A stretch of 64,000 bases of DNA from Planctomyces sp. SH-PL14 (GTDB lineage: Bacteria > Planctomycetota > Planctomycetia > Planctomycetales > Planctomycetaceae), in contig NZ_CP011270.1 in NCBI RefSeq assembly GCF_001610835.1, positions 682,001 through 746,000 of the forward strand. The letters are read 5' to 3'. The position numbers and the translations under genes were made by a program. Shown one piece after another: positions 4,748 through 64,000 of this stretch. The notes beneath the pieces were generated by a model. It saw only the letters and a program-made list of their open reading frames with translations, searched no databases and was not told the origin of the DNA. Numbering within the stretch: position 1 is the stretch's first letter; each line of letters starts with the position of its first letter.

Positions 4748-4782
4748 CCAGAACACGTTCGCTGGATGGTTGTCCGAAGAAC

Positions 4783-5036
4783 CGGGGTCCAGGGGCTCGC
4801 CCCTGGTGGGGGATGCAAGGGGGCCTGTCTTGTTTTTTTGGCCCCCTTGCCCGCCGGAGGCCTGGCCGTCGAGAGATGTCTGAAGGAGCACGTGTCCAAG
4901 CGCGGCCAAGGTGCGGGATACCCCCTCACCAACACGCGGGGATTCAGAGCGAGCGTTGAGTCCTCACCGCCGGTCCCTCAAAGCAGACGTCCGTTGTCTG
5001 CCACAGTTCCTCAGGGAAGCGCCTCCGGCGGCAAAG
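4783..5036 (+). repeat. dispersed intergenic repeat, copy A
   Basis: Starts 35 bp after the kinase stop. It has the left-end hairpins, the core (GTCGAGAGATGTCTGAAGGA), and GCCTCCGGCGG at the right, but lacks the terminal right-end hairpin and the ACGTTGGG box, so it is truncated. The left hairpin loop is enlarged with a T-run (stem arms AAGGGGGCC and GGCCCCCTT). An extra 15-bp match to copy E lies 13 bp outside the left end (4756-4770). Confidence 0.85.
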
Positions 5037-5580
5037 GCACCACTGAACAGGCGCCCCGTACCGTCGATGGTCGGCCGGATGAGCCGATCATGCCAATCTC
5101 CCCGCCTCTGGCAGTCGTAGGGGACTCCGCCGGCGGGAGCGGATGCCCGAAGGGAGCGAAGACGCCGTGGAAAACGCCCCTGGCGGAAGAATGTAAGGAA
5201 CGTTCCCGCCAAGTCTTCAGCCAAGTTGACAGCCGCAGAAAATGGGTGATAACGTAGGGAAACTGTCGTTCCGCATGGCCCAGGGCGTGCTTTCCGTGGA
5301 TTTCTGCGGAGACAGCGACTTGGGGCAGCGGGCTGCCGGGCCTCCCGGCGTCCCCCTTGCGGCCCGGCTCGTAATGCCCTTCCTCAGCGGGGCTTCGGAT
5401 GATCGGTTTGATCCGTCCGCGGCCCTGATGTCCCTCAAGTCGTTATCCATTCGCGTTTCGAACCTTGCCGGGTGGGTCGTCGCAGCCGCCGCTGCCCGGA
5501 ACGGTGTTCAGACGGTCGATGTTTTGCCCTTCCCCGCACGACGAGGGGAAGGCGGGACATCCCTGTTGAAGGACCTCCCC
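5037..5580. other. intergenic stretch or unlikely N-terminal extension
   Basis: The reading frame of the next gene is open from 5242, but residues encoded by 5242-5580 look like random high-GC sequence and place the signal peptide more than 130 residues inside. I treat this as non-coding leader. No other gene or clear promoter is seen. Confidence 0.4.
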
Positions 5581-7777: not shown

Positions 7778-8089
7778 CCTGCCGGGAAGCTCGACCCAAC
7801 GTGCCACGGCAGCCTGGGGTCAAGGGGGCCACGCCCCCTTGCCGCCGGAGGCATTTTCGTTGAGGAACCGTGGTACGCAACGGACGTCCCCTTTGTGGGA
7901 CGAGCGTTGAGGACTCTCTCACCCCGAACAGCTCGCTTTGAAATCCCCGCGGGTTGGTGAGGGGTCATACGGCACGGTATCCGCGTTTAGATACGTACTC
8001 CTCCAGACATCTCTCGACGGCCAGGCCTCCGGCGGGCAAAGGGGCGTTGCCCCTCTGCACTCCCCACCAGGGTGCCCCTGGACCCCGGC
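7778..8089 (-). repeat. dispersed intergenic repeat, copy B
   Basis: Inverted copy starting within 3 bp of the ferredoxin stop. It carries the CCCAACGTGCC right-end box, both terminal hairpins, the core and the GGGTGCCCCTGGACC left end. In the core stem TGTCC/GGACA it reads TATCT/GGATA, so a G-C pair has become A-T on both sides, while another pair becomes a G-T wobble. Confidence 0.9.
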
Positions 8090-18040: not shown

Positions 18041-20563
18041 ATGACCTGGAAGAACATCAAGCTGATCTTTCTGCGGGAAGTCCGGGACCAGCTCCGGGAC
18101 CGGCGGACCCTGTTCATGGTCGCTGTCCTGCCGATCCTGCTCTATCCGGCGCTCGGCATCGGCATGATGCAGATGACGCTCACCTTCACCGAGCAGCCCC
18201 GCACGGTGGTGGTGCTGGGAGCGGAAGACCTGCCCCCTCCGCCGCTGATCGATCCCGCCAATCCGGGACGCTTCGTGGGGCGGTTCTTCGTCTCTCCGGA
18301 TGATGCCGCCAAGCTGGATGTCCTGACGGAACAGAACGTCCGGGGAAACGTTGAAAGCAAAGAGCAGCAGGCCGCGGCCGGAATGGTCGCGCTCGCGCAG
18401 AAGAACCGACCGCAGGTCGAAGAGCTTGCGGGGACGATCCGGGCCCGACGGGACCGCGATCTCGAGCTGACGGCCGTGACCGACCGGTTGCAGGCGCTGA
18501 AGCAGACGGCCGATCGGACCGAAGCCCAGAACGAAGCGATGCAGGCGGAAGAGGCCCGGGGCCGGGAGCTGGTCCGGCAGATCGATGCCGACAAGGCCCG
18601 CGAAGCCGCAATGAAGCTGGCGATCGACCAGTGGTTCAGCGAGAGCAAAATCCAGGTCCTGATCGTCGTCCCCAAGGGGTTCAAGGAGAAGGTCCAGGAG
18701 ATCGACGAGCAGCTCAAGACCCGCCAGGGGAACCTGCGGGATATCGACCAGATTCCGCGCCCGATCGTCCTGCAGAACAGCGCCGACGAGAAATCCCAGG
18801 TCGCCTATCGCCGCGTGAAAGAGGCGATGCGGGACTGGGAATCCGAAGTTCTTCAGGCCCGGCTCTCCAAGGCGGGGCTCCCCAGCACGCTCTCCTCGCC
18901 GGTGAACGCCGTCGAAGTCGACATGGCCCGGCCGGACGACATGGCGGCGAACCTGTGGAGCAAGCTCTTCCCCGCCATGCTGGTCATGATGGGGGTCACG
19001 GGGGCCTTCTATCCGGCGATCGACCTCGGAGCGGGGGAAAAGGAGCGGGGGACGATCGAGACTCTGCTTATCTCGCCGGCGACCCGCTCGGAGATCCTGG
19101 TCGGAAAATTCCTGACGGTCCTCCTCTTCAGCGTGACGACGGCCCTGCTGAACCTCGTCAGCATGGGGATGACGGGCAAGTACACGATGTCGCTCTTCGG
19201 ATCGAGCCGCTTCGGCGGGGTGGGCGACATTTCGCTCCCCCCGGCGACGTCGATCGCGTGGGTCGTCGTGATGTCGATCCCCCTCTGCAGCCTGTTCAGC
19301 GCCCTGAGCCTGGCGTTCGCCATGTTCGCCAAGAGCAACAAGGAGGGGCAGTATTACCTCACGCCGCTCCTGATGGTGACGATGGGTCTGGCAGTCGTCT
19401 GCCTGAGCCCGTCGCAGGAGATCTCGCAGTTCAACAGCCTGATCCCCGTCGTCGGGCCGTCGCTGCTTCTCAAGGCGCTCCTGCAGAGCTCGCATCCGTC
19501 GCACGAGATGTCGTACTACCTCGTGTCGGTCCTCTTGGCGAGTATCGGCTACAGCGCGGCGGCGCTGATGTGGGCGGTCTCGCTCTTCAAAAGGGAAGAG
19601 GTCCTCTTCCGCGAGGCGGAGCGGTTCGACCTCAACCTGTGGATCCGCCACGTCCTGCGGGATAAGGAGCCGACCCCGCGGGCCGCCGAGGCGGTGATGT
19701 GCTACTTCCTGATGATGGTGCTTCAGTTCGCCTCGATCGGGCTGTTTCAGGAGGCGATGGGGAGCGCGATGAAGGGCCCCAACGCCGCCCAAGAGATGCT
19801 GCGGCTGCAGATGATGTCGATGGCGATGGCGGTGCTCGCGCCGCCTGTCGTGATGACGCTCGTCCTGACGACGAACTTCCGGCGGACACTCAAGTTGTAC
19901 TGGCCGAAGCCGATCTTCCTGCTGTTCTCTGTGCTGCTCCCGTTCGCGCTGATCCCGGTCGCCAACGAAGTCCTGCAGAACCTGGAGTGGTTCTTCCCCA
20001 AGCCCCCGTCGTCCGCGTTCGACATCATCAAGGCGATGGGGAGTTCCGAAGTGCCCGTCGTGCTGGCTCTGCTGGCGGGGGCGGTCTTTCCGGCGGTCTG
20101 TGAGGAGGTGGCGTTCCGCGGGTTCATCCTGACGGGGTGGCAGCGTTCGTATCGCGGCTGGGCGGCGATCACGATGTCGTCCATCGCGTTCGGGATGATC
20201 CACATGATTCCTCACCAAGTGTTCAACGCGGTGTTCCTGGGGTTTGTGCTGGGGCTGCTGGCGGTCCGGAGCGGAAGCCTGCTGCCGGGGATCATCTTCC
20301 ACTTCCTGTTCAACGCGACGCAGCTGTTGCGGCTGCGAGTCCGGCCGGAGTGGTTTGACTCGGGGATTACGGACTGGCTGTTCACGACGACTGTCCATGA
20401 TGGAAAGCCGATGCTGGACTTCGACCTGCCGTTGATCGCGATTGCGGGGCTGGCTTCGGTTTACATGGTTTACTGGTTGTACCGGATGAAGAATGAGCGG
20501 CCCGAGGCGGCGGCGCTGGCCGAGCCGTCGCATCCGGAGACGCTCGCTTCCGTCTCGCGATAA
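18041..20563 (+). CDS. ABC-2 permease (NatB-like) fused to a CPBP intramembrane protease domain
   Basis: 840 residues. N-terminal half: one membrane helix after a cytoplasmic start, a long soluble insertion with charged helical sequence (about 95-290), and then an ABC-2/NatB membrane block. C-terminal half: CPBP (CAAX-like) protease with CEEVAFRGF (EExxxR), FGMIHM (FxxxH) and HFLFNA (HxxxN) motifs at about 687-765. The ABC partner is the preceding gene; the pair could export an ion or peptide and also cleave a membrane substrate. The ATG at 18041 is chosen over an open 47-codon extension because it begins the NatB-type segment. Confidence 0.92.
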   Translation: MTWKNIKLIFLREVRDQLRDRRTLFMVAVLPILLYPALGIGMMQMTLTFTEQPRTVVVLGAEDLPPPPLIDPANPGRFVGRFFVSPDDAAKLDVLTEQNVRGNVESKEQQAAAGMVALAQKNRPQVEELAGTIRARRDRDLELTAVTDRLQALKQTADRTEAQNEAMQAEEARGRELVRQIDADKAREAAMKLAIDQWFSESKIQVLIVVPKGFKEKVQEIDEQLKTRQGNLRDIDQIPRPIVLQNSADEKSQVAYRRVKEAMRDWESEVLQARLSKAGLPSTLSSPVNAVEVDMARPDDMAANLWSKLFPAMLVMMGVTGAFYPAIDLGAGEKERGTIETLLISPATRSEILVGKFLTVLLFSVTTALLNLVSMGMTGKYTMSLFGSSRFGGVGDISLPPATSIAWVVVMSIPLCSLFSALSLAFAMFAKSNKEGQYYLTPLLMVTMGLAVVCLSPSQEISQFNSLIPVVGPSLLLKALLQSSHPSHEMSYYLVSVLLASIGYSAAALMWAVSLFKREEVLFREAERFDLNLWIRHVLRDKEPTPRAAEAVMCYFLMMVLQFASIGLFQEAMGSAMKGPNAAQEMLRLQMMSMAMAVLAPPVVMTLVLTTNFRRTLKLYWPKPIFLLFSVLLPFALIPVANEVLQNLEWFFPKPPSSAFDIIKAMGSSEVPVVLALLAGAVFPAVCEEVAFRGFILTGWQRSYRGWAAITMSSIAFGMIHMIPHQVFNAVFLGFVLGLLAVRSGSLLPGIIFHFLFNATQLLRLRVRPEWFDSGITDWLFTTTVHDGKPMLDFDLPLIAIAGLASVYMVYWLYRMKNERPEAAALAEPSHPETLASVSR

Positions 20564-20576
20564 GGTGGACCGGCCA

Positions 20577-20900
20577 CCGGGGTCCAGGGGGTAACCCATG
20601 GTGGGGGATGCAAGGGGGCAACGCCCCATTGCCCGCCGGAGGCTTGGCCGTCGAGAGATGTCTGAAGGAGAGCGTGTCCAAACGCGGAACACGTGCAGGG
20701 TACCCCTCACCGAAGACGCGGGGAGTGCAAAGCGAGCGGTGTAGGTTGGCGGAGTGCTCAACGCGGGTTCCACAAAGCGGACGCCCGTTGCTGACCGCCG
20801 TTCCTCATAGAAGTGCCTCCGGCGGCAAGGGGTCGCCCCCTTGACCCCAGCCTGCCGTCGCACGTTGGGTTTGAGCTATCGAGCGGTGCCGGCAAGGACG
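20577..20900 (+). repeat. dispersed intergenic repeat, copy C
   Basis: Nearly complete copy starting 13 bp after the permease stop. The left hairpin has one mismatch (CCCCATTGC arm). The right end is clear: GCCTCCGGCGGCAAGGGG, the GCACGTTGGGTTTGAGC box and GTGCCGGCAAGGACG. Confidence 0.9.
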
Positions 20901-21003
20901 CGATTCGAGGCAACGTGTCCCGACAGGAGCGCGGCATTCCTTGCAGCGCGGAACACCGTGAAGCACACTGCCAACGTCCCACGACGCTCTCCGGACTGAA
21001 CCC

Positions 21004-23784: not shown

Positions 23785-24113
23785 GTCTTCGTTCGGACAC
23801 CGCCCTCTGCCAACGACGGATATCCGACTCGCAACCGAACGCCGCCAGCCAACTGGGTCCAGTGGCACCCTGGTGGGGAGTGCAGAGGGGCCGGTGTTGT
23901 TTTCTGGCCCTTTGCCCGCCGGAGGCCTGGCCGTCGAGGGATGTCTGAAGGAGCACGTATCCAAACGCGGACACCGTGCCGGATGCCCCCTCACCAACCC
24001 GCGGGGATTGCAGAGCGAGCGGTGAGTCCTCAACGCCGGTTCCACAAAGGGGACGTCCGTTGTGTGCCACGGTTCCGCACGAAAATGCCTTCGGCGGCAA
24101 GGGGGTGAGACCC

Positions 24114-29934: not shown

Positions 29935-30349
29935 GAGTTAAGGGGGGCCGAAGGGTACCAGCGGGTGATTTGTCTCGCATCTGTGCCCGCTGCCTGGGAG
30001 GCGAAACGGGTGCGTTCGCTGGATGGTGTTCGAGGATATGGCGTTGCGGCGGACGGGTGATCGACGGCGCCAACGCACCGGGTCCAGGGGCACCCTGGTC
30101 AGGGGATGCAAGGGGGCGACGCCCCCTTGCCCGCCAGAGGCCGTCTCGTCGAGAGATGTCTGAAGGAGTGTGCATCCAAGCGAGGACACCTTGACGTATG
30201 CCCCCTCACCACCCCGCGGGTACTGCGAAGCGAGCGGTGAGTCCTCGACGCCGGTCCCATAAAGGGGACGTCCGTTACTTACAGCGGTCCCTCATGGAGG
30301 TGCCTCCGGCGGCAAGGGGGTGAGACCCCCTTGACCCCGGCTGCCGTAG

Positions 30350-35778: not shown

Positions 35779-35909
35779 GGATCACATGGGGAACGAGGAA
35801 ACACGAATACAGGCAGTAGCCTTTATCGAGGGGAACTTGTCAATCGGAGACGAAAGGGATCGGGGCCAACGGTTGCATTCGCCGATGGGTGGTCGCCAAA
35901 CACTGGCCT

Positions 35910-36204
35910 CACCGGGTCCAGGGGCACCTTGGTGGGGGATGCAAGGGGGCCTGTGTTGTTTTTTTGGGCCCTTTGCCCGCCGGAGGCTTGGCCGTCGAGA
36001 GATGTCTGAAGGAGCGCGTGTCCAAACGCGGACAACGTGCGGTATGCCCCCTCACCTAACCCGCGGGGATTGCAACGCCAGCGGTGTATTTTGAGGGAGT
36101 CCTCAACGCAGGGACCACAAAGGGGACATCCGTTGTGTGCCACGGTTCCTCATGGAAGTGCCTCCGGTGGCAAGGGGGCGTGGCCCCCTTGACCCCAGGC
36201 TGTG
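35910..36204 (+). repeat. dispersed intergenic repeat, copy G
   Basis: Copy with full left end (hairpin with enlarged T-rich loop as in copy A), core (GTGTCCAAACGCGGACA stem intact) and right hairpin (AAGGGGGC, GTG, GCCCCCTT). The terminal GCACGTTGGG box is replaced by unrelated sequence (CTGTGGGTCGCGG). Confidence 0.88.
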
Positions 36205-40544: not shown

Positions 40545-40860
40545 ACGTCCTTGCCGGCACGACTCTGCTCGCTCAGACCCAACGTGCGACGGCAGCTTGG
40601 GGGCAAGGGGGCCACGCCCCCTTGCCGCCGGAGGCACTTCCATGAGGAACCGTGGTAAACAACGGATGTCCGCTTTATGGGACCGGCGTCGAGGACTCAC
40701 CGCTCGCTCTGAAATCCCAGCGGGTTGTTGAGGGGGCACACAACACGTTGTCCGCGCTTGGACACCATCTCCTTCAGACATCTCTCGACGAGAGGGCCTC
40801 CGGCGGGCAAAGGGGCGTTGCCCCTCTGCACTCCCCACCAGGGTGCCCCTGGACCCGGTG
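40545..40860 (-). repeat. dispersed intergenic repeat, copy H
   Basis: Complete inverted copy between two divergent genes. Right-end boxes CGTCCTTGCCGGC and CCCAACGTGC, right hairpin, core (TGTCCGCGCTTGGACA, intact stem) and left end GGTGCCCCTGGACCCGG are all visible. It lies 254 bp upstream of the C39-like gene and 84 bp upstream of the FAA hydrolase gene. Confidence 0.92.
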
Positions 40861-40944
40861 AGGTCCAGCGTAAAGTCGCGATGGTTGAGTCCATCCCCCG
40901 CATCCGCGACAGTGGGACTCGACCGATTCCCTTTGAGACCCACC

Positions 40945-41754
40945 ATGCGCATCCTCCGCTACCGAGACTCCGCCGGCTCCATCCACCTCGGATGCCAGCA
41001 CGACCAGAAAAGCGTCACCCGCGTCGAAGGTGACCTCTTCGGCTCCCTCAAAGACACCGGTCAACCGGCCGAAGTCGCGGAGTGGCTCGCCCCCCTCATC
41101 CCCACGGATATCCTCTGCATCGGCCTCAACTACCGGAAGCACGCCGCCGAAGGGAACCAGGCCATCCCCGAAAACCCCGTCCTCTTCATCAAGAACAAAG
41201 GGGCCCTCCAGAACCCAGGCGCACCGATCGTCCTCCCCAAGAAGCTCCCCAGCCAGTCGGTCGACTACGAGTGCGAACTGGCCGTCGTCATCGGGAAGGA
41301 ATGCCTCAACGTCTCCAAAGCCAACGCCCTCGACTACGTCGTCGGCTACACCTGTGCCAACGACGTCAGCGCCCGCGACTGGCAGCGGAACGGCGGCGGC
41401 GGTCAGTGGTGCCGTGGTAAAACCTTCCGCACCTTCGCCCCCCTCGGCCCAGTCCTAGTCACGAAAGACGAGATCCCGAACCCCAACGACCTCAAGATCA
41501 AAACGATCCTCAACGGCGAGGTCATGCAGGACTGGACGACGAGCGACATGATCTTCGACGTCCCGACCCTCATCGAGTTCCTCAGCGCCAGCACGCTTCT
41601 CCTTCCCGGAACCGTGATCCTCACCGGCACCCCGCACGGCGTCGGCTTCGCCCGCAAGCCACCGGTGTTCCTCAAGGCGGGAGACACGGTGACGATCGAC
41701 ATCGAGAAGATCGGCCAGCTCACCAACCCGGTCGTCGACGAAGACTGGAAGTAA
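40945..41754 (+). CDS. fumarylacetoacetate hydrolase family protein
   Basis: 269 residues. LCIGLNYRKHAAEGN, the metal-binding acidic set starting YECELAVVIG, YTCANDVSARDWQ and the C-terminal PGTVILTGTPHGVGFARKPPVFLKAGD identify an FAH-superfamily C-C hydrolase or isomerase. It should act on acylpyruvates, such as products of aromatic or sugar-acid breakdown, using a divalent metal. The start at 40945 matches family N-termini (MRILRYRD); the open extension to 40843 is repeat sequence. Confidence 0.93.
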   Translation: MRILRYRDSAGSIHLGCQHDQKSVTRVEGDLFGSLKDTGQPAEVAEWLAPLIPTDILCIGLNYRKHAAEGNQAIPENPVLFIKNKGALQNPGAPIVLPKKLPSQSVDYECELAVVIGKECLNVSKANALDYVVGYTCANDVSARDWQRNGGGGQWCRGKTFRTFAPLGPVLVTKDEIPNPNDLKIKTILNGEVMQDWTTSDMIFDVPTLIEFLSASTLLLPGTVILTGTPHGVGFARKPPVFLKAGDTVTIDIEKIGQLTNPVVDEDWK

Positions 41755-41818: not shown

Positions 41819-42052
41819 ATGACCGACCGACAACTGACCTGCCGCATCTGCGGCGGGACGGAACATTACTCGGAGGTCGTCCACGCCCGCGGGGGGTACG
41901 GCCCCGACCTGCTCCCGATCGGTGGCTTCTTCTCGTCACCGAAGTTCCGCATCGTCGTCTGCGGCGGATGCGGCCACATTGAGTGGTTCGTGATGGAGAA
42001 GGACCTCGAAAAAGTCCGGACGAGGTTCTACCCCTACCCGCCCGAGGAGTAG
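41819..42052 (+). CDS. small zinc-ribbon protein
   Basis: 77 residues with CRICGG near the N-terminus and CGGCGH near residue 49, a two-CxxC zinc-ribbon layout, with hydrophobic and aromatic residues in between. Family members are widespread small proteins of unknown role. It lies 65 bp after the FAA hydrolase gene and 60 bp before the polA-like gene; its stop is in the same frame as that gene. Confidence 0.8.
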   Translation: MTDRQLTCRICGGTEHYSEVVHARGGYGPDLLPIGGFFSSPKFRIVVCGGCGHIEWFVMEKDLEKVRTRFYPYPPEE

Positions 42053-42112
42053 CCGCGGCGGCCTGTCCGTCGCGAGGGACCTATTGCGGAGAGGAGAAAA
42101 CCAGGAAGCCCC

Positions 42113-43660
42113 ATGCCTCAGATCATCAATCAGAATATCAAGTACGACATGCTCGTCCTGAAGCGGGCCGGGGTCGAGATCCCGTCGCTGGGGCTCGACA
42201 CGATGATCGGGGACTACCTCCTGGATGCCGGCGCGCGGGCCCACGGGCTCGACGAACTGGCGAAGAAGTACCTGCTCCACACGATGATCCCGATCACTGA
42301 CCTGATCGGAAAGGGGAAGCAGCAGATCAAGATGAGCGATGTCCCCGTCGAGAAGGTCGCCGAGTACGCCTCGGAGGACGCCGACATCGCCTGGCAGCTC
42401 GCCGAGATCATCGAGGCGAAGCTCAAGGAACAGGGCCTCTGGGACCTCTACTGGAATCTGGAGCGGCCGCTGATTCCGGTCCTGGCCGAGATGGAGTGGC
42501 ACGGCATCAAGGTCGATGCGGACGAGCTCCGGCGTCAGAGCGCCTCCGCCGCGGAGCGACTGGAAGTCCTCGTCCGCGAGATCCACGCGATCGCCGGGCG
42601 GGAGTTCAACATCGACTCACCCAAGCAACTCGCCGTGATCCTGTTCGACGAGCTCAAGCTGCCGGTGATCAAGCGGACCAAGACCGGTCCCAGCACCGAC
42701 CAGGAAGTGCTCGAAGAGCTGGCCAAGCAGCACGAACTCCCGCACAAGCTCATGGAGCACCGCCATCTCCAGAAGCTCAAGGGGACGTACCTCGATGCCC
42801 TTCCCGAGATGGTGAATCCTCACACGGGGAAGATCCACACTTCATTCAGCCAGGTCACCGCCGCCACGGGCCGACTCAGCTCCAGCGACCCGAACCTGCA
42901 GAACATCCCGATCCGGACGGAGGAGGGCCGCCGCGTCCGCCGGGCCTTCGTGCCGTCCGAGCCGGGCTGGAAGCTCGTCTGTCTCGACTACTCGCAGATC
43001 GAACTCCGGATGCTGGCCCACTTCTGCCAGGACCCGGCCCTCGTCGACGCCTTCCAGAAGGGGGAGGACATCCATCGCCGCGTCGCCGCGGAAGTCTTCA
43101 AGGTCGCGCCCGAAGCGGTCGACTCGAACCAGCGGCGGGTCGCCAAGGCGGTCAACTTTGGCGTGATCTACGGCCAGACCGCCTACGGCCTCTCGGCGAC
43201 GATCGACATCGAGCAGGAAGAGGCCGAAACCTTCATCACGGAATACTTCCAGCGGTACGCCGGCGTCGAAAAGTTCATCAACGACACACTCGATGAATGC
43301 CGTCAGAACGGTTTCTCGACGACGATCCTCGGTCGCCGCCGGGAGATCGTGGGGATCCGCCCGCGCCGATACCGCAACCTGAACCTCCCCGAGCGAACGG
43401 CGGTGAACTCGGTCATCCAGGGCTCCGCGGCGGACCTCATCAAGCAGGCAATGATCAACGTCCACGCCAAGCTCAAAGAGACCGGCCATCCCGCCCGGAT
43501 GCTCCTCCAGATCCACGACGAACTCGTCTTCGAGGCCCCCGAGGATCAGGTCGAATCGCTCGTGGCGCTCGCCAGGCACGAGATGGAGAATGCGATCCCT
43601 GTCAGCGTCCCGATCGTCGTCGACGTGAAAAGCGGTGACAACTGGCTGGATGCGAAGTAA
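42113..43660 (+). CDS. polA: DNA polymerase I, N-terminally truncated
   Basis: 515 residues covering family A polymerase motifs A (LDYSQIELR), B (RRVAKAVNFGVIYG) and C (QIHDELVFE). Upstream lies only the last part of the 3'-5' exonuclease fold (NQNIKYDMLVLKRAG, YASEDAD). Full PolA proteins are about 900 residues, so the 5' nuclease and the first half of the exonuclease, including the Exo I Asp-Glu, are missing. Scanning the same frame upstream reaches a stop at 42050-42052 (the zinc-ribbon stop) with no alternative start, so the truncation is real in this sequence. It may polymerise but should lack proofreading and RNA-primer removal. Confidence 0.9.
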   Translation: MPQIINQNIKYDMLVLKRAGVEIPSLGLDTMIGDYLLDAGARAHGLDELAKKYLLHTMIPITDLIGKGKQQIKMSDVPVEKVAEYASEDADIAWQLAEIIEAKLKEQGLWDLYWNLERPLIPVLAEMEWHGIKVDADELRRQSASAAERLEVLVREIHAIAGREFNIDSPKQLAVILFDELKLPVIKRTKTGPSTDQEVLEELAKQHELPHKLMEHRHLQKLKGTYLDALPEMVNPHTGKIHTSFSQVTAATGRLSSSDPNLQNIPIRTEEGRRVRRAFVPSEPGWKLVCLDYSQIELRMLAHFCQDPALVDAFQKGEDIHRRVAAEVFKVAPEAVDSNQRRVAKAVNFGVIYGQTAYGLSATIDIEQEEAETFITEYFQRYAGVEKFINDTLDECRQNGFSTTILGRRREIVGIRPRRYRNLNLPERTAVNSVIQGSAADLIKQAMINVHAKLKETGHPARMLLQIHDELVFEAPEDQVESLVALARHEMENAIPVSVPIVVDVKSGDNWLDAK

Positions 43661-46955: not shown

Positions 46956-47055
46956 GCGTTGGGACTCCGCGCCGTGGCAAAAGGGAGAGGGTAAAGTCCC
47001 GGGCGGTTCAACGCAAAGTCGCGGCCAGTGCGAGGTGAATGGCTGAATCGCGCGG

Positions 47056-47366
47056 CCTCCTTGCCGGCGCGGCGATGCCACCTCAAACCCAACGTGCCAC
47101 GGCAGCCGGGGGCAAGGGGGTCACCCCTTGCCGCCGGAGGCACTTCCATGACGAACCTTGGTAAGCAACGGATGTCCCCTTTGTGGAACCGGCGTTAAGG
47201 ACTCACCGCTCGCCCTTGAATCCCCGCGGGTTGGTGAAGGGGCATCCGACACGTTGTCCGCGCTTGGACACGTGCTCCTTCAGAGAGGCCCCTATGAGAC
47301 AGGCCTCCGGCGGGCAAGGGGGCGTTGCCCCCTTGCATCCCCCACCAGGGTAGCCCCTGGACCCGC
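47056..47366 (-). repeat. dispersed intergenic repeat, copy I
   Basis: Complete inverted copy. The left hairpin is perfect (arms GCAAGGGGGC and GCCCCCTTGC), while the right hairpin is shortened (CAAGGGG, TGA, CCCC). Part of the core near 47285-47305 is altered (AGAGAGGCCCCTATGAGACAGG in place of the usual sequence). Its left end lies 19 bp from the stop of the DUF1549/DUF1553 gene. Confidence 0.9.
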
Positions 47367-55759: not shown

Positions 55760-55816
55760 GATGGTGTCATGGTAATCGTCGGCGATGGGAGAGCGCTACT
55801 CCGGGGCGTCGAACCG

Positions 55817-56130
55817 TGGCCTTGCCGGTACGACTGTGTTCGCTCAAACCCAACGTGCCACGGCAGCCGGGGTCAAGGGGGTCTCACCCCCTTGCCGCCG
55901 GAGGCACTTCAGTGAGGAACCGTGGGACACGACGGACGACCGCTTTGTGGTACCCGCGTTGAGGACTCTCGGCTCGCGTTGCAATCCCCGCGGGTTGGTG
56001 AGGGGCCATACGACACGGTGTCCGCGCTTGGACACGCATTCCTTCCGCTATCTCTCGACGGCCAGGCCTCCGGCGGGCAAGGGGGATTCTCCCCCTTGCA
56101 TCCCCTGACCAGGGTGCCCCTGGACCCGGT
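55817..56130 (-). repeat. dispersed intergenic repeat, copy J
   Basis: Complete inverted copy between two divergent genes. In the left hairpin the loop-closing C-G pair found elsewhere is A-T (GGGGGA and TCCCCC arms), a paired change that keeps the stem. The right hairpin is AAGGGGG, TGAGA, CCCCCTT. The core stem TGTCC/GGACA is intact. Confidence 0.92.
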
Positions 56131-56212
56131 TAAGGCTCAAGATTGACGGACGGCGGAAACCAAGACCATCATGATCCCCTCTAGGGCAACTCGTTCATCG
56201 AGGAGAAGGGTC

Positions 56213-60825: not shown

Positions 60826-60897
60826 CCCGCGTCTGGCTGGACTGAAAGCGGGCCGGTGAGGCGGGGACTCAGGGACGTTTCCCGCTGGCTCTAACCA

Positions 60898-61237
60898 CGT
60901 CCCTGCCGGCGCAGCGTTGTTCTCTCAAACCCAACGTGCCACGGCCACTGGGGTCAAGGGGGTCTCGCCCCCTTGCCGCCGGAGGCGCTTCCCTAAGGAA
61001 CCGTGGTAAGCAACGGACATCCACTTTGTGACACCGGCGTTGACGATTCCCTCAATCGACACAGCTCGCTTCGCAATACCCGCGTCTTTGGCGAGAGGGT
61101 ATCCGACACGTTGTCCGCGTTCGGACACGTGCTGCTACTGACGGTGTCCGACGGGCCAGGCCTCCGGCGGCAAGGGGCCAAGAAAATTACACAGGCCCCC
61201 TTGCATGCCTCACCAAGGGCGAGCCCCTGGACCACGG
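60898..61237 (-). repeat. dispersed intergenic repeat, copy K
   Basis: Complete inverted copy between convergent genes; its left end lies 5 bp from the next gene's stop. The core stem TGTCC/GGACA is intact. The left hairpin has an irregular enlarged loop (AAGAAAATTACACA). Several other core positions differ from the majority, so it is one of the more diverged copies. Confidence 0.9.
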
Positions 61238-63772: not shown

Positions 63773-63820
63773 CGCGGGCGCTCGGAGCTATGCCTGTCCG
63801 ACGGTGTCCGGGCTAGCGCC

Positions 63821-64000
63821 GCGTCCTTGCCGGCGCGGCTCTGTTAGCTCACTCCCAACGTGCGACGGCAGCCGGGGTCAAGGGGGTCTCACCCCCTTGC
63901 CGCCGGAGGCTCTTCCATGAGGAACCGTGGGACACAACGGACGTCCGCTTTGTGAGATCCGCGTTGAGGACTCCCTCAAACCACACCGCTTGCTTTGCAA
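63821..64000 (-). repeat. dispersed intergenic repeat, copy L (cut by window edge)
   Basis: Inverted copy with the right end (GCGTCCTTGCCGGC, CCCAACGTGC), the CAAGGGGG-TCTCA-CCCCCTTG hairpin, GCCGGAGGC and the first part of the core. The left half lies beyond the window. Confidence 0.88.

Follow-up and report, generated by a model that had tools for sequence, protein, structure and literature searches.

In the 64-kb stretch of planctomycete DNA analysed here (the window), an open reading frame on the + strand (42113-43660; ATG start, 515 aa) encodes the C-terminal piece of polA, consisting of the second half of the 3'-5' exonuclease domain and a complete family-A polymerase domain. A plausible Shine-Dalgarno ribosome-binding site (AGGAAG, 42103..42108, + strand) precedes the start codon. 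Directly upstream and in the same frame lies a small zinc-ribbon gene of 77 aa (41819..42052, + strand), preceded by an FAA-hydrolase family gene (40945..41754, + strand) and by a minus-strand copy of a dispersed repeat of ~320 bp (40546..40860; 40546-40881 in the repeat listing). A sequence-only reading of this locus had reported that the upstream frame is stopped within 63 bp, which is correct: 20 open codons separate the ATG from a TAG 63 bp upstream (42050-42052), the stop codon of the zinc-ribbon gene.

The C piece is matched by the NCBIfam PolA model TIGR00593 only from model position 381 of 890, and by the Pfam exonuclease family PF01612 only from profile position 79 of 173 (positions 79-172; 42122..42424, + strand), opening at a beta strand. 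Both matches confirm the earlier proposal that the gene starts inside the exonuclease fold, at a point that presumably corresponds to about residue 417 of E. coli Pol I (HMMER alignment and standard Klenow numbering). Pfam DNA_pol_A is complete (residues 137-512), and motifs A (DYSQIELR), B (RRVAKAVNFGVIYG) and C (QIHDELV), already described as intact, are all present in the polymerase domain (42521..43648, + strand). The AlphaFold model (mean pLDDT, 91.9) has the Klenow/Bst fold, with Foldseek TM-scores that reach 0.94 (E. coli Pol I, 8oo6). Three catalytic residues of the exonuclease are found on this piece, D12 (in NIKYD, 42146-42148), Y85 (42365-42367) and D89 (42377-42379), their roles being assigned from the established Klenow DEDDy numbering. 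A profile search of the genome, a single contig of 8,442,773 bp (100% complete), returned the C piece as the sole PF00476 match. The suggestion that the gene is a shortened paralogue therefore fails, the genome being without any other PolA.

The other suggestion, that a rearrangement had left the N-terminal part at another place, was borne out. A separate 418-aa open reading frame (the N piece; G000:C1:1740251-1741507) is located behind a glutamyl-tRNA-synthetase-like gene on the same contig, ~1.01 Mb from the C piece. It consists of a whole 5' nuclease, an exonuclease stretch running from FCLDLETSN to MKPILEGAD, and a tail, LSGAVAPVSPVVRKAPAPVARPENGDSAKTQGRLFG. The tail is new, comprises 35 residues without similarity, looks disordered and ends in QGRLF-G. 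The FEN-like 5'-3' exonuclease domain of PolA1, with its conserved carboxylates, is thus present in this genome on a gene of its own, and the three domains that PolA1 unites in one polypeptide are divided between two genes. The N piece is not a solo 5'-3' exonuclease devoid of other Pol I domains, as it extends into the exonuclease domain (PF01612 positions 3-72), where the catalytic D and E lie. Its nuclease is the only PF02739 match in the genome (at 1,740,260; profile search), and the cell therefore has a 5' nuclease for Okazaki primers. The sequence-only reading held that a cell with this PolA alone would need another enzyme for this task; the nuclease is supplied by the second half of what was ancestrally one gene.

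The two pieces are complementary in their coverage of PF01612 (N piece, positions 3-72; C piece, 79-172) and scarcely overlap or leave a gap; the C piece resumes the domain with MPQIINQNIKYD after MKPILEGAD of the N piece. In a model of the fused enzyme of a relative, Thalassoglobus neptunius (L077), the region is formed by a helix (367-378), a loop and a strand (384-387), and the cut falls in the loop. Within the exonuclease fold, the models thus place the cut after helix alpha-A and before the strand that follows it, at which the C piece starts. The N piece is predicted to contribute strands 1-3 and helix A, with the catalytic D and E, and the C piece the remaining elements, with D12, Y85 and D89. 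All residues of the DEDDy site of the DnaQ-like 3'-5' exonuclease are intact, divided as D and E on the N piece and D, Y and D on the C piece.

Two routes to such a layout were considered and rejected. A split intein of the DnaE type is not indicated, since the Pfam search found no intein domain in either half and the intein N and C parts are absent at the cut, where the N piece has a 35-aa tail and the C piece a leader of ~3 aa. Duplication followed by complementary loss is likewise disfavored, as tblastn of the regions around both pieces revealed no remnant of the other half.

The genomic neighborhoods are uninformative about the direction of the rearrangement. Neither half carries the neighbors of relatives' polA, and polA gene order is conserved only among more distant family members, so synteny does not tell which half moved. 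The block of FAA hydrolase, zinc-ribbon gene and polA, whose comparison had been recommended in the sequence-only reading, is not conserved in relatives: their FAA-hydrolase orthologues are located elsewhere than polA, and no homologue of the zinc-ribbon gene was found in the polA or FAA loci examined.

The dispersed repeat occurs near both pieces, with a copy beginning 14 bp past the stop of the N piece (G000:C1:1741521-1741841). About 11 copies plus fragments are present in the window, in both orientations and roughly 75 to 92% identical; in addition to the copy upstream of the FAA-hydrolase gene, they lie at 4774-5037, 7789-8088, 20555-20915, 23839-24113, 30064-30347, 35900-36202, 47042-47365, 55806-56131, 60883-61237 and 63811-64000. 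Genome-wide, 1,187 first-look candidate places were obtained in 8.44 Mb, of which the best 40 were scored (87 to 92% identical). The repeat contains imperfect inverted repeat arms and is unusually abundant for a bacterium; an Rfam search around one of the copies gave no hit above threshold. A repeat-mediated break was considered but is at best a possibility, as the repeat sits just beyond the N piece and not at the cut. The same many-copy repeat 14 bp after the N piece could mislead an assembler, and a mis-join could then have separated the parts of a normal gene. Such an error is very improbable here. The homology of the N piece stops ~105 bp short of the repeat, inside unique sequence; no repeat lies between the zinc-ribbon gene and the C piece, the nearest copy being ~1.25 kb upstream; and two independent mis-joins would be required in the same codon region, leaving complementary halves, a start codon and a ribosome-binding site.

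The nearest relatives by sequence all possess a fused gene of ~900 aa, with identities of ~59 to 64% in the N part and 66 to 73% in the C part, and polA was fused in 70 of 70 loci from GTDB genomes passing the length and completeness filter. Four other genomes with apparent splits by open reading frame length (G020, G127, G068 and G057) were rejected, as each half runs off a contig end. A degenerate-looking second polA with an interrupted frame and one internal TGA (L091 and L176; G093:C6) was observed in a genome with an intact polA on another contig. Neither PF00476 nor PF02739 was found in the relatives G046 (98% complete) and G091 (92% complete), which may reflect assembly gaps. In the tree of the N part, this genome groups with the genera of G027 and G028 (99% bootstrap for the three), and the tree of the C part recovers the same two genera (84% with G027 and 45% for the three). 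Overall N and C topologies differ (AU test, p of about 0.03), a difference that applies across the entire set rather than to this genome alone. Because the relatives are fused and both halves group with the same genera, sequence comparison indicates that polA underwent a lineage-specific fission after divergence from the genera of G027 and G028, with vertical descent of both halves from one fused gene.

At positions invariant in the fused relatives, the split enzyme deviates at 5 of 96 in the 5' nuclease, 0 of 19 on the N side and 2 of 46 on the C side of the exonuclease, and 2 of 160 in the polymerase, counts that fall within the spread seen among fused genes. With the tree fixed, terminal branches measured 0.265 for the 5' nuclease, 0.352 for the exonuclease and 0.117 for the polymerase. 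The resulting ratio of 5' nuclease to polymerase (2.26) is the highest of 18, followed by 1.42, and that of exonuclease to polymerase is about 3.0, one fused gene being close at about 2.8. The high rates may reflect relaxed constraint on the nuclease parts or decoupling of rates after the split, and the ratios do not tell whether the proofreading site still works or has been lost. The split was seen in one genome only, the sole member of its genus compared, and could be recent, which would make the lack of decay uninformative. E. coli survives with either part of Pol I, and such a distribution would also fit a harmful break that arose only lately in the strain sequenced, with both halves transcribed, Pol I function impaired and the split unfixed in the species. 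We consider this improbable, as the C piece has its own start and a plausible ribosome-binding site, the N piece has gained a new in-frame tail, and the two pieces differ in relative rates, which takes time.

The QGRLF sequence of the tail occupies residues 413-417 of the 418 of the N piece and resembles a sliding-clamp motif of the QxxLF type, a clamp reading that rests on a five-residue match noticed after the fact. Similar sequences (QPSLF, QGALF, QGQLF or QATLF) occur in the linker after the 5' nuclease in the Pol I of several planctomycetes. Furthermore, an exonuclease loop GKGKxQ(L/K)(K/Q)MF (QLKMF/QKKMF) is common in planctomycete fused polA (L009-L062 type), including many near relatives. 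This motif also resembles a clamp-binding site and is lost in the split enzyme, which has QIKMS where relatives commonly have QLKMF, a change that counts against the two-subunit interpretation favored below. In one other genus of the family, three genomes (G080, G100 and G165; 98 to 100% complete) encode a 5' nuclease only (L069:1956-3032, L070:1823-2824 and L173:2426-3598), in which the linker diverges but the C-terminal RQQ(S/T)LFE is conserved; the QGRLF-G end of the N piece resembles this C terminus. No orthologous Pol I polymerase domain was found in these three genomes, from which the polymerase of Pol I has apparently been lost; other members of that genus have fused polA. A survey of >3000 bacteria described PolA2 of Actinobacteria as the first family-A polymerase of bacteria in which a clamp motif was identified (PMC12926913). 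Given this claimed first place, the planctomycete QxxLF-type motifs are leads worth testing.

The occurrence in the same family of solo nucleases that end in QxxLF favors the main rival interpretation, in which the two pieces are independent enzymes. The N piece would be a solo flap nuclease that reaches the clamp through QGRLF, and the C piece a polymerase no longer able to proofread. The exonuclease fragments would then stay only to help each piece fold or bind DNA. Loss of the exonuclease active site in about half of bacterial Pol I orthologues and the common replacement of the domain by solo 5' nucleases (PMC12926913) favor this interpretation, as do the fast nuclease and exonuclease parts relative to the polymerase in this genome. 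We regard it as possible but rather doubtful, since the two half-domains keep all five catalytic residues and have changed at hardly any of the invariant positions, and since half a sheet from an RNase-H-like fold, its hydrophobic strands conserved, is unlikely to be a free-standing appendix on the N piece.

The interpretation that we favor, with modest confidence, is a fissioned polA from which the cell makes Pol I as two polypeptides, a two-subunit Pol I. A fuller version, a naturally split Pol I in which proofreading is rebuilt in trans without an intein and the flap-nuclease subunit has its own clamp motif (heterodimeric Pol I), is put forward more tentatively. In such an enzyme, the two exonuclease fragments would dock non-covalently, the divided RNase-H-like fold serving as the docking interface. 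Docking would restore the DEDDy proofreading site, with D and E from the N piece and D, Y and D from the C piece, and would hold the flap nuclease next to the polymerase. Through its C-terminal QGRLF, the N piece may also bind the sliding clamp, which would take the nuclease to Okazaki junctions. If correct, Pol I tolerates division into two subunits with active-site residues retained on both sides, providing a natural split-enzyme system that would allow a direct test of whether it matters in vivo that flap nuclease, proofreading and polymerase are linked.

Pol I is the textbook single-chain enzyme with three activities. The split enzyme shares with canonical Pol I (PolA1; TIGR00593) the three domains, the catalytic residues, the sequence and common ancestry with the fused polA of neighboring genera, and differs in being split within the exonuclease fold and encoded by two genes that lie ~1 Mb from each other. 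The halves of cyanobacterial split dnaE are also far apart in the genome and are spliced by a split intein; here, too, the halves of a replication-polymerase gene lie far from each other, but neither has an intein domain. In the split PolB of Methanothermobacter, the cut lies within the polymerase domain. A precedent for one polymerase formed from two polypeptides, as proposed here, is PolB of Methanothermobacter thermautotrophicus (Kelman 1999, as cited in PMC7776575 and PMC3984812), although that enzyme is archaeal and belongs to family B. The 5' nuclease is kept by nearly all bacterial genomes examined, and separate 5' nuclease and polymerase genes are already known (PMC12926913). In the combination of a PolA1-like protein lacking the 5' nuclease with a solo 5'-3' exonuclease, nuclease and polymerase are likewise on separate polypeptides, but the separations described there (PMC12926913) involve whole domains, whereas here the proofreading domain itself is cut and half of it stays with the nuclease. 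A literature search of limited scope found no earlier report of a Pol I cut inside the proofreading fold. The QGRLF of the N piece is similar to the QxxLF-type clamp-binding motif of another family-A protein, PolA2/APEX (PMC12926913), which in these actinobacterial polymerases is located in a loop of a dead exonuclease and not, as here, at the C terminus of a nuclease piece. A heterodimeric Pol I, if true, would have a layout resembling that of archaea and eukaryotes, where FEN1 and polymerase are separate.
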